DNA from: a bacterium
GTDB taxonomy: Bacteria > UBP14 > UBA6098 > JAFGQG01
Length of the DNA stretch: 56,347 nt
Reading direction: 5' to 3'
Assembly (NCBI GenBank): GCA_016930435.1
Contig: JAFGGQ010000079.1
Location: forward strand, 1-56,347
In this document: positions 29,180 to 32,555 of the stretch, one piece after another
Layout of the letters: each line of letters starts with the position of its first letter
Position numbering within the stretch: the first letter of the stretch is position 1
Notes under the pieces: generated by a model
Told to the model about the DNA's origin: nothing
What the model saw: the letters and a program-made list of their open reading frames with translations, nothing else
Database searches by the model: none
Translations under genes and position numbers: made by a program

Positions 29180-29974
29180 TCAATTTAAATCTTTGATGAC
29201 AGATGTCAGGAATTTTGAAAGGACCGTCCCCCCCTCAACTGCAGTTTTTAGGACGTCCTGATGATTGGGAATACCCTTTCCGTGGACATTTGTGATAAAT
29301 GCCAGGCCCAGAACATTGAGGTTCAGATTTACTGCCAGTTGAGTTTCAGCGGCTATGGACATAGAGATGGCTTGCATTCCTATTTTTCTCAGGAAGTGTA
29401 TTTCAGCGGGTGTTTCGTACATAGGTCCCGGCACGGCTACCAGTGTTCCCTTTTGAATTCCGAAATTCATTTTTTTTGCGGTATTCAGCGCCAGTTTGAC
29501 CAGTTCCGGATGGAATAATGCAGGTTTGTTGAGTTTGGTATCAAGGCCCGGTGAGGGTGCCGCAAATTGCAGGTCGAGAATATCCGTAATGATCATAAGG
29601 TCTCCCACCTTGAATTCCGGGTCAATACCACCCGCAGAGCACGTCAGGATAACATTCCGGCAGCCTAATTGCTCTAAAATTCTTATTCCGAAAGTTACAG
29701 ATTCCCAGCCTTCGCCTTCATAAAGGTGCTTTCGTCCCTGAAGCGCAGCCACATTATGATTACCTATGCTGCCAAAAACAAAATTGCCCGGATGGCCCTC
29801 CACCCTACTTACAGGATAACCAGGGATATCCTTATAGGGAAAGGCTATTTTGTTATTCATTAGAGCAGTAAATCCGGACAATCCTGAACCAAGAACCAGG
29901 CCGGTATCCGGCGGATATTGAATTTTATCCGCAATGTATCTATTGGCTTTAATAATTTTTTTTAATTGTTTCAA
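29180..29974 (-). CDS. Purine-nucleoside phosphorylase (trimeric, class I)
   Basis: Splits purine ribonucleosides or deoxyribonucleosides with phosphate. 264 residues from a TTG at 29974, which follows AGGTGG by 7 nt. An upstream TTG at 30022 would give 280 residues but has no ribosome site. Landmarks are LVLGSGLSG (phosphate loop), VEGHPGNFVFG, GRKHLYEGEG, LTCSAGGIDPEFKVGDLM, the base-site glutamate in GPMYETPAEI, and the purine-contacting Asn in AFITNVHGKG. Upstream of accD-folC. Confidence 0.93.
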   Translation of the reverse strand: MKQLKKIIKANRYIADKIQYPPDTGLVLGSGLSGFTALMNNKIAFPYKDIPGYPVSRVEGHPGNFVFGSIGNHNVAALQGRKHLYEGEGWESVTFGIRILEQLGCRNVILTCSAGGIDPEFKVGDLMIITDILDLQFAAPSPGLDTKLNKPALFHPELVKLALNTAKKMNFGIQKGTLVAVPGPMYETPAEIHFLRKIGMQAISMSIAAETQLAVNLNLNVLGLAFITNVHGKGIPNHQDVLKTAVEGGTVLSKFLTSVIKDLN

Positions 29975-30087
29975 TCGACTTCCACCTGTTGTTTCCCGAA
30001 CGTATTCTGTCTTCCCTTCCAATGATGGCGATTAGTGAATTAGGGTAATAAATCCATTTGAAAATTCATATCCTTTTTTTCCCATCC

Positions 30088-30173
30088 GTCCCTACGGGAC
30101 TGAAATTTAATCAGATCATTAAACCCCATCAATAAATTGATGGGTTAATTTCGCATAATCCCTCACGGGATTA
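30088..30173. repeat. Cluster of three REP-like hairpins
   Basis: Three short perfect stems within 86 bp: GTCCC/GGGAC (30088-30092, 30096-30100), CCCATCAA/TTGATGGG (30125-30132, 30137-30144) and TAATCCC/GGGATTA (30156-30162, 30167-30173). All are topped or closed by CCC/GGG. The first and third match the kind of short 'CCCGTAGGGA' palindromes dispersed in many FCB genomes, often linked to RAYT transposases; no such gene is present here. They fill the gap between PNP and the cassette-like island. Confidence 0.6.
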
Positions 30174-30175
30174 AC

Positions 30176-30299
30176 GGTTGAGTATATGAAAAGTAGGCGA
30201 TTGCGAACTTCAAACTTATCAAAACGAGATAATTTTCAAACGGGTTTCAGCCCTTGAACTTACTACTATCACGCCTATTTTGGATATACATTGTTCGGG
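30176..30299. repeat. attC-like imperfect palindrome, copy A
   Basis: The outer arms GTATATGAAAAGTAGGCG (30182-30199) and the complement of CGCCTATTTTGGATATAC (30272-30289) match at 15 of 18 positions, with a longer, partly paired middle. It ends in CATTGTT (30289-30295). The first 27 nt match copy B (30933-30959) at 23 positions and the total lengths agree within 1 nt. It lies 6 nt beyond the stop of the DUF6624 gene, where an integron cassette would carry its attC site. Confidence 0.65.
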
Positions 30300-30305
30300 G
30301 CAGTA

Positions 30306-30905
30306 TTATTTTATCCAACCTACTGATTTTCTCCATTTGTCATATTCTCGTCTTCTTTCTTCAAAGTCTTTCGGTGGTCGTTGTTTCTCGCTTTTCACTC
30401 TATTTTTCATGATTTCAGTCTGTTCTTCAAGCGTGTTTAAACCAAGAGCTTTTCTCCTTTGGTTTACTTTTGCGGAGTCGTCAAATTGATTAGGTTTCAT
30501 TTCTCCATTTTCGTTCCAATCAAATTGAGTTCCGTAGAGTTGTGGTTTTCCTTCAAAAACGGCTATTCGGTCGGTCAAGTATGCTAAGCATTTCGGGTCT
30601 GCTTTTTTTTCGTTAACAGCAATTTCTAATAGTCTTGCAGATTTTTTCATAAAGTTAGGTTGCCCGATAGAGTGCTGAATAATGAGCCAAGCAGCATTAC
30701 TTGCTTCTTCGCCAACTTTATCAGATGTCGGAAACCCAATTTTTTCCATTATCAGGTTGAGTTCTTTGGCATTTTCATTATTCAAGACTTCCATTTCCTG
30801 ATTGTAGCCATTTGAAAGAGTTCCTTCCCTTATCAATTCAGTTCTAAGTTTGTCGTCCTTCTTTTTAAGTCCAATTAACTTCCTAGAGATTTTATCAAAG
30901 TCCAT
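30306..30905 (-). CDS. DUF6624 family protein in cassette-like unit
   Basis: 199 residues from the ATG at 30905. A longer frame to 31049 only reads through the palindromic element and is not used. The segments SNAAWLIIQHSIGQPNFMKK, LAYLTDRIAVFEGKPQLYG and TQFDWNENGEMKP are typical of DUF6624, a family of unknown function found sporadically in bacteria. No signal peptide or transmembrane helix is seen. The DNA is more AT-rich than that of flanking genes. It lies between two related palindromic elements on the same strand as the nuclease-like gene. Confidence 0.82.
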   Translation of the reverse strand: MDFDKISRKLIGLKKKDDKLRTELIREGTLSNGYNQEMEVLNNENAKELNLIMEKIGFPTSDKVGEEASNAAWLIIQHSIGQPNFMKKSARLLEIAVNEKKADPKCLAYLTDRIAVFEGKPQLYGTQFDWNENGEMKPNQFDDSAKVNQRRKALGLNTLEEQTEIMKNRVKSEKQRPPKDFEERRREYDKWRKSVGWIK

Positions 30906-30932
30906 TATGCTCTTTTTTAAATTAACCCAAAA

Positions 30933-31054
30933 GGTTGCGTGTATGAAACGTTGGCGATTAAGGGCTTCGTACTTGTCCACCCAAAACTTAAACTTGCTAA
31001 GAGCCCGAAACTTGCGGAAACCACTGTCCGCCCTATATTTTATACCCATTGTTG
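30933..31054. repeat. attC-like imperfect palindrome, copy B
   Basis: Begins GGTTGCGTGTATGAAACG and ends with CATTGTT (31047-31053), the same layout as copy A at nearly equal length (about 121 nt to the CATTGTT). The outer arms GTATGAAACGTTGGCG and GTATAAAATATAGGGCG (read on the other strand) pair imperfectly. An inner GGGCT/AGCCC stem is also present. It overlaps the last 15 nt of the nuclease-like gene and precedes the DUF6624 gene, as expected for a cassette junction. Confidence 0.65.
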
Positions 31055-31660
31055 TGTGTAGTTTTTTTGTTCTTTATATGATTTCGTTATTTCACTTTTT
31101 AATTCACTATATCTTTTGGGTTCAGTCAGTTTTTTTAATGAATTAATTGTGATTGAACTCTGACTTCTTTCGTAGTTGTCAAGTCGATAAGTTGGTAGGA
31201 TATAAAAATCCCATTGTTCCATTTTTAATGGGTCAATCGTTTTTTGGTCTTTATGTTTTAAATGGCATAATACGTAAAGGTCAGCATGTCTTTTTGCTTC
31301 TCCACTTTCCATATTTGTTTCTGCGTCCCAATATCTTGCAGGCCTGATTGAAAATGAAATGGTCGAAAAGCTCTTTTGGTTCCAACTTTGGATATAAGCG
31401 GCAGATTTAACTTCTATTTTTATTCCATCTTCTGTCGTCAAGTCATAAGCATCCCATTCGTTTCTTAAATTTTCGGGATTTAGTCCGACTGCTGTTCCAA
31501 CAACAAATTCTGCAAATCTTCCGCGAGTTGCATTGCTCAGAATGTCTGATACACTCCAACGCCAAAAGTCCAACAGGTTATAGTTCGTATTCTGTCCATT
31601 GTCCGTTAAACTTTCTTTTCCGGTTTTTGGACTGGCTTTTATTTCTTTGAGTTCGTTCAT
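31040..31660 (-). CDS. Putative PD-(D/E)XK nuclease-like protein in cassette-like unit
   Basis: 206 residues, no signal or membrane segment. A restriction-endonuclease-like core can be proposed: E51 in RFAEFVVGTAVGL, D70/D73 in NEWDAYDLT, and E83-x-K85 in IKIEVKSAAYIQSW, the usual D-(x)n-E-x-K spacing. The second half (WDFYILPTYRLDNY, then a KKL-containing tail) resembles small hypothetical proteins carried on accessory DNA. The ATG has no Shine-Dalgarno; only an AT-rich TAATTTAAA precedes it. Codon use is AT-rich. Could act in defence or element maintenance; that is speculation. Confidence 0.68.
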   Translation of the reverse strand: MNELKEIKASPKTGKESLTDNGQNTNYNLLDFWRWSVSDILSNATRGRFAEFVVGTAVGLNPENLRNEWDAYDLTTEDGIKIEVKSAAYIQSWNQKSFSTISFSIRPARYWDAETNMESGEAKRHADLYVLCHLKHKDQKTIDPLKMEQWDFYILPTYRLDNYERSQSSITINSLKKLTEPKRYSELKSEITKSYKEQKNYTQQWV

Positions 31661-31670
31661 TTTAAATTAC

Positions 31671-31735
31671 GCACAACGTATGTCTATATTCATTGTTGTT
31701 ACAGCACAAATCTGGAGGGATAACAACAATTGTTG
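31671..31735. repeat. Short attC-like / terminal element, copy C
   Basis: Upstream edge of the two-gene island. ACAAC (31673-31677) and GTTGT (31695-31699) enclose GTATG and TATATTCATTG, the end boxes of copies A and B without their middle. ATTGTTGTTA (31692-31701) also pairs exactly with TAACAACAAT (31721-31730), and a 12-bp palindrome CAACAATTGTTG lies at 31724-31735. The following 31736-31880 has no convincing gene. Confidence 0.5.
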
Positions 31736-31880
31736 ATACATTCCATTTACCATATCAAACCTTTTACTCAAAAAAAACATCAACTGGATTTCAAATTTTA
31801 CCAATCGCCTTTTTGGACAACAAAAATGATCTAATCCTTTTTTATTACCCAGCAAGGGAAAAATCCCCCTTTTCAGAGCT

Positions 31881-32555
31881 TCACCTCGTTTTGAATTTTT
31901 TCATGTAAACTGGCTCGATTGAATCCGGCGCAGTGAAATCGCTGCATTCATATTTCATAGTCCCTATCATTGCCACGGAGACTGCTGATGGATAGATATT
32001 ATTCGGTGAAGCAAACCGGGCTCTTTCACCTAAAAGCCCTGTTATCTCGTCCTTATAGGTATGGATGGCTTCGCCGGTAAAGATGATCGTTTTTTCAACC
32101 GGTATAAGTTTTACAAAATCAGCTAACTTGCGACATTCAGCCGGGAGCAACTCCTGAGGGAGACCGTCCTGGCAATTAAAAAGGGCAGAAGCCACCTGGC
32201 CTTCCCGTGCATCCAGAATTGGAGCTATCAAGAATGGATTAGGTGCAAAAAGATAAGCCATTGCCTTCAGGGTATTTACTGTGACCAGGGCTATGTTATT
32301 CTCCACCACCAAACCCAATACAGTAGCCAAACCAACCCGCAAACCAGTATAAGCCCCCGGACCCGTGGAAATGGCAATTGCATCGATGTCATTCAGGGTG
32401 AGTTCCCGTGCCCGTAGCAAAAAAATAAGGGCAGGAATAATAGTAGCTGAATGCTTTTGAGTATGGGAGCATCGGATATCCCCTTCAAGCCGTCCCTCAT
32501 TCAATAAAGCTATAGCCGTAATTTCAGTAGAACTGTCAATACCCAGGATACGCAA
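31881..32555 (-). CDS. tsaB: tRNA threonylcarbamoyladenosine biosynthesis protein TsaB
   Basis: Non-catalytic ASKHA-fold partner of TsaD and TsaE in forming t6A37 of ANN-decoding tRNAs. 224 residues. Opens RILGIDSSTEITAIALL, followed by the diagnostic AIAISTGPGAYTGLRVGLAT and a LDAREGQVASALF segment. The start is a TTG at 32555 with GGGAGGAG upstream. It lies 11 nt after the glmS stop, so it is the last gene of a glmM-glmS-tsaB transcript. Confidence 0.95.
   Translation of the reverse strand: MRILGIDSSTEITAIALLNEGRLEGDIRCSHTQKHSATIIPALIFLLRARELTLNDIDAIAISTGPGAYTGLRVGLATVLGLVVENNIALVTVNTLKAMAYLFAPNPFLIAPILDAREGQVASALFNCQDGLPQELLPAECRKLADFVKLIPVEKTIIFTGEAIHTYKDEITGLLGERARFASPNNIYPSAVSVAMIGTMKYECSDFTAPDSIEPVYMKKFKTR

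Follow-up and report, generated by a model that had tools for sequence, protein, structure and literature searches.

Recombinase-associated acquired interbacterial defence (rAID) loci of the gut Bacteroidales are built from an upstream tyrosine recombinase, co-oriented short AT-rich genes and conserved intergenic motifs, and the biogenesis of these arrays has been stated to be an open question (PMC12247911). In the literature that we searched, no paper joining rAID to integrons was found, although others may exist, and none was found there on a Persicobacter integron. In integrons, a cassette begins with the second half of its own recombination site, and these first bases are complementary to the R'' box that follows its gene. 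To our knowledge, reports of integrons from Bacteroidetes are rare. One complete integron was newly reported in Bacteroidetes proper by IntegronFinder 2, namely, that of Salinibacter ruber (PMC9024848). The same program recognizes CALIN, clusters of attC sites lacking the integron integrase.

Here, we analysed a window of 56,347 nucleotides of bacterial DNA (GenBank assembly GCA_016930435.1, contig JAFGGQ010000079.1) containing an island of two genes, each followed by a palindromic element. Very probably, the two genes are cassettes of an integron-like gene-capture system and form a cluster that now lacks its integrase.

The island and its host flanks

Read along the minus strand, the locus comprises, in this order, tsaB (31881-32555), a palindromic site C, a gene for a nuclease-like protein, site B, a DUF6624 gene, site A and the gene for purine-nucleoside phosphorylase (PNP; 29180-30022), with tsaB and PNP, both on the minus strand, forming the host flanks. 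The predicted inserted segment (30175-31676, minus strand) measures 1502 bp and comprises two gene cassettes. Its left edge, at GTTGTGCG, comes after C, the predicted crossover falling between 31677 (G) and 31676 (TT), whereas the right crossover is predicted at A, between 30175 and 30174. At this point begins a stem-loop-rich interspersed host repeat (30087-30174, minus strand) of 87 bp, which recurs elsewhere in the genome as four nearly complete copies plus a partial one, on several contigs and with 89-91% identity. These copies start at the equivalent of 30173-30174, the predicted G(30175)/TT(30174-30173) crossover, such that the right edge of A and the edge of the host repeat agree within 1 nt.

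The gene of cassette 1 (31040-31660, minus strand) encodes a protein of 206 aa in which E51, D73 and E83-x-K85 are invariant in an alignment of 21 homologues, 62-87% identical; these motifs suggest a PD-(D/E)XK nuclease-like product. A Pfam search with this protein yielded no match, the PADLOC match was weak (mREase_II, E 0.019), and the AlphaFold model was poor (pLDDT 60), with an uninformative fold search. Cassette 2 carries a gene (30306-30905, minus strand) for a 199-aa DUF6624 protein (Pfam PF20329, E 3.3e-14). Domain-profile searches, including Pfam and PADLOC, detected no immunity domain in either product.

The GC content of the two cassette genes is 35% and 37%, compared with 45-48% for PNP, tsaB and glmS, so that the base composition, which a preliminary description of the bare sequence had already singled out, indeed sets both genes apart. 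The missing Shine-Dalgarno sequences, taken there as another mark of the island, do not discriminate, because such a sequence is also missing from 3 of the 4 adjacent host genes that were checked. Elsewhere in the class, five genomes have tsaB and PNP adjoining or overlapping, with zero intervening DNA; given that these genomes come from other families and that the proteins are only about one-third identical, this abutment represents synteny rather than a clean empty site. The counter-case considered in the preliminary description, a related genome carrying both cassette genes at this locus but lacking the elements, was not found. We infer that the island arrived by recombination.

The attC-like sites and the cassette rule

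The starting DNA search with B gave seven matches, the best being 82% identical, in plasmid pPP2 of Persicobacter psychrovividus, within a region that consists of a long series of co-oriented small genes. A covariance model, R1, was built from 25 aligned pPP2 sites and contains no sequence from the window. Its score is 76.9 bits (E 2.3e-16) at B (30924-31060, minus strand), the attC-like site of cassette 1, and 73.7 bits (E 1.3e-15) at A (30166-30302, minus strand), the attC-like site of cassette 2. Judged by R1, each of the two is a complete copy of the same element. The initial observation that each AT-rich gene is followed by a palindromic element is thereby borne out, with both elements belonging to one type of site, whereas the proposed length of about 120 bp proved too short: the box boundaries lie further out and the element spans about 137 bp. 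The R1 hairpin has 14 pairs, 12 of which show compensatory changes among the 25 Persicobacter sites, and both A and B fit the model. Covariance models were needed because simple DNA searches with B or C, run against the own genome, returned solely the window itself and short chance matches; a search of Rfam with the elements gave zero matches.

At the crossover triplets, A fits AAC...GTT, with an intact GTT at 30175-30173, whereas B has AAC but carries CTT instead of GTT in R'; the R'' box of B, TACACACAAC, runs into the last codons of the cassette 1 gene. As was noticed at the outset, the boxes of the window fall outside the strict RYYYAAC / GTTRRRY consensus. So do nearly all those of the pPP2 array, where 2 of 48 sites fit on each side, which accounts for the doubt that the consensus had raised.

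R1 also identified a second island in the own genome, on contig 64 (14900-16082). It consists of a left-end site, a 147-codon gene and a 78.5-bit site, followed by a next cassette that is cut by the contig end. The start of the complete cassette, GTTGTGTGGC, is complementary to its R'' box, GCCACACAAC, at 10 of 10 positions, as the cassette rule of integrons demands. In the window, cassette 1 starts with GTTGTGCGTA, which is complementary to TACACACAAC at 9 of 10 positions (p 0.003 by shuffling). The rule is seen on a larger scale in the 75-kb pPP2 array, where an exact 9-base complement lies downstream of 52 cassette starts, compared with 1-6 in shuffles and 9 on the other strand. The start of cassette 2, by contrast, matches its own R'' at only 5 of 10 positions. 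Given this and the CTT in the R' of B, the pair formed by cassette 2 and B appears to be decayed or otherwise assembled, and B itself may have decayed.

Palindromes 3' of genes are often terminators, and this genome does carry stem-loop repeats, as would suit an ordinary acquired two-gene island whose elements are terminators or REP-like repeats with no role in recombination. However, termination cannot account for cassette starts that are complementary to the 3' site, and the site accompanies unrelated genes across phyla, with its AAC/GTT ends fixed, which renders such an origin of the elements extremely improbable.

C (31668-31775, minus strand), with its 10-bp perfect inverted repeat ATTGTTGTTA/TAACAACAAT, had been described as a short third copy of the element. 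As a short third attC, it was rejected, R1 giving only 11.8 bits (E 0.4); instead, C is a separate left-end site common to two other islands. Indeed, C, the left end of the contig 64 island and the left end of a Neomarinimicrobiota locus (L012), which forms the left border of an island with the same nuclease cassette, align over about 108 columns with a common hairpin (p 0.002 for C against the L012 left end, without the gene). A second model, R2, built from these three left ends, was run on 582 kb of the own genome (about 20%) and matched solely beside cassette islands. Given that homologous left ends are found at unrelated loci, one of them in another phylum, and that none is present elsewhere in these 582 kb, C travels with the islands rather than belonging to the host locus. 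Weak R2 matches, of 18 and 16 bits, were obtained in recombinase-bearing genomes, among them matches in register at the attI positions of two loci (L197 and L196), with scores that alone are not significant, and the attI of Persicobacter JZB09 has a 14-base match with the L012 left end. From these comparisons, C is probably an attI-like site.

Alternatively, C could be a mere host sequence that served as an attG-like chromosomal target, an explanation which differs from ours in the identity of C only. Cassette insertion at attG is documented, according to the article through which we cite it (Loot et al. 2024, as cited in PMC12901181), and the right junction of the island does fall at the edge of a host repeat, at G/TT. 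However, the homology of C to the left ends of two islands at unrelated loci, its restriction to island borders in the part of the own genome covered by R2 and the R2 matches at attI positions argue against a host sequence, and we consider this alternative unlikely, although the least so of those discussed here. Under the cassette-cluster interpretation that we favour, each cassette would comprise one gene and a 137-bp site, the single strand of which would form an extended hairpin (R''-L''...L'-R'). Cutting at G/TT would be the work of a tyrosine recombinase that either acted in trans or has since been lost, and circular cassettes would be joined at the attI-like C and so placed between tsaB and PNP.

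Spread of the sites and the associated recombinases

Whole-genome counts of R1 sites are lower bounds, because no more than 150 candidates were scored in each genome. Such sites are present in at least 21 of the 22 named FCB genomes holding a relative of the nuclease, with at least 48 in the richest genome, and in at least 3 of the 17 genomes of the class to which the window belongs; apart from the own genome, two same-class genomes have them. Thus, the elements do recur outside the window, on contig 64 and well beyond, which is what the preliminary description had made its cassette reading depend on. The nuclease gene itself (protein 81-86% identical) lies between such sites in Ignavibacteriota (L009), Fidelibacterota (L012) and Bacteroidota (L011, L013). 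At L012, two different cassette genes, one HNH-type (1118-2170) and the other nuclease-like (2319-2939), have almost identical first 18 codons, as if gene starts had been swapped between cassettes.

Several other arrays are described here for their contents. In one genome of the same class (L133, G011:C16, 5464-8575), a 293-aa ORF and an N6/N4 methyltransferase gene are followed by a 99.7-bit site and then by another methyltransferase gene; judging by these products, the cassette is probably a restriction-modification one. In another (L134, G008:C182, 3654-5696), a cassette encodes an EcoRI-family endonuclease and an EcoRI-type methyltransferase, with an 85.9-bit site behind. Many near-identical cassettes starting with GTTATCTCTG and with no evident annotated gene recur through the pPP2 array (L032 / L052). 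In Aurantibacter crassamenti (G056 contig 1, 2892160-3026328), many R1 sites share one strand across about 134 kb of a large contig; a strong pPP2-type recombinase was not found in that genome.

The island had been described as lacking an integrase, and this holds for the whole of the own genome as assembled (90% complete), where neither an IntI above the curated cut-off nor a pPP2-type recombinase was found, only XerC/D-like proteins and a 112-aa fragment. A tyrosine recombinase, for which a search had been proposed, is found beside such arrays in other genomes. In pPP2, the array starts right after a gene in the same orientation for a 379-aa tyrosine recombinase with an N-terminal extension of about 100 aa, which scores above the NF040815 cut-off and below that of TIGR02249. 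Its relatives are encoded directly upstream of co-oriented arrays in Pontibacter, Rufibacter and Parabacteroides plasmids. The same succession of recombinase and array is found in Pedobacter arcticus, P. changchengzhani, Xanthomarina and a Bacteroidia MAG, with the first cassette 100-180 bp downstream, and in Persicobacter JZB09 the recombinase is accompanied by an attI-like stretch and a single cassette. A Cryomorphaceae recombinase of the same family (L205, 1834-4891) has R1 sites upstream, not downstream; two others (L195, L199) lie near a contig end, and no array was seen beside a further one (L201).

All array-associated recombinases lack the IntI-specific insertion, and the IntI-specific domain is considered a defining trait (PMC9668308). 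In a tree of 30 rows, in which other tyrosine recombinases are thinly sampled, the array recombinases group with IntI against XerC/D with full support. The type that is commonest beside the arrays is akin to Xer as well as to IntI and would be the one acting on these sites.

A true IntI-type integrase (366 bits, above the TIGR02249 cut-off) is encoded in a genome of the same family as that of the window (G001; L054, G001:C58, 1-1366). Together with the integron-cassette architecture of the island, this raises the possibility of a classical CALIN, i.e., of ordinary IntI integron cassettes whose attC sites have drifted and whose canonical IntI has since been lost. However, no cassettes were found beside this IntI, and there is no R1 site of that genome among the matches listed. 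Furthermore, the boxes depart from the strict consensus, and the integrase found beside this type of site in other genomes lacks the IntI insertion. We regard a classical CALIN as unlikely, somewhat more so than an attG-like target, and prefer the integron-like system served by a different recombinase.

Relation to known systems

Taken beyond the window, the data incline us, with somewhat less assurance than for the island itself, to the view that Bacteroidota and allied phyla possess an integron lineage of their own, missed by IntI-based searches. This lineage would be characterized by a recombinase that lacks the IntI insertion and is co-directional with the cassettes, a palindromic attI, and attC sites of 130-140 nt that are fixed only at AAC/GTT. 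Its form in the gut would be the rAID immunity arrays, and cassettes could settle in genomes devoid of an integrase by way of solo attI-like platforms, such as C. If these arrays act as integrons, a large pool of cassettes has been missed, with at least 48 sites in the richest genome and some cassettes carrying restriction-modification genes; rAID would gain a concrete mechanism of acquisition, and an integrase devoid of the IntI-specific domain would reveal what this domain is really required for.

In sum, the island is a cluster of the CALIN-like kind, belonging to an integron-like system that is of Bacteroidota type and related to rAID. It was not classed as a classical integron, given boxes that deviate from the strict consensus and the lack of an IntI, be it in the genome or, by domain, beside such arrays elsewhere. 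Accordingly, the preliminary label of a CALIN-like cluster survives as regards the layout, with attC-type sites and no integrase, but not as regards strict boxes or IntI, whereas the accompanying suggestion of a possibly different cassette system gains from both the off-consensus boxes and the array recombinases without the IntI insertion. In common with CALIN, the locus has co-oriented single-gene cassettes and two attC-type hairpins, scored here by R1 rather than by the model of IntegronFinder, that lie 0.8 kb apart (the criterion being < 4 kb), and no intI; unlike in CALIN, the boxes are off RYYYAAC/GTTRRRY and the integrase associated with such sites elsewhere is not IntI by domain. The likeness to attG insertion consists in cassettes located outside an integrase-bearing platform and in the G/TT junctions, the difference being the conserved left-end site that accompanies the islands.

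Sedentary chromosomal integrons, or superintegrons, resemble the related arrays in their length, reaching 75 kb beside the recombinase in pPP2, and in their mostly unknown single-gene cassettes. Here, by contrast, the recombinase gene points the same way as the array, its product is devoid of the IntI-specific insertion, and the attI of pPP2 is palindromic. Compared with rAID, the window differs in that no tyrosine recombinase is encoded directly upstream, its genes are nuclease-like and DUF6624 rather than orphan T6SS immunity genes, and its sites are longer (137 bp). Nevertheless, it does contain at least two co-oriented short genes with a GC content below 41% (206 and 199 codons), and the arrays found elsewhere share with rAID the upstream recombinase, the co-oriented short AT-rich genes and the intergenic motifs. 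In the Parabacteroides relative, SUKH/Tdi1-type genes are arranged in the rAID layout and the cassette rule holds.
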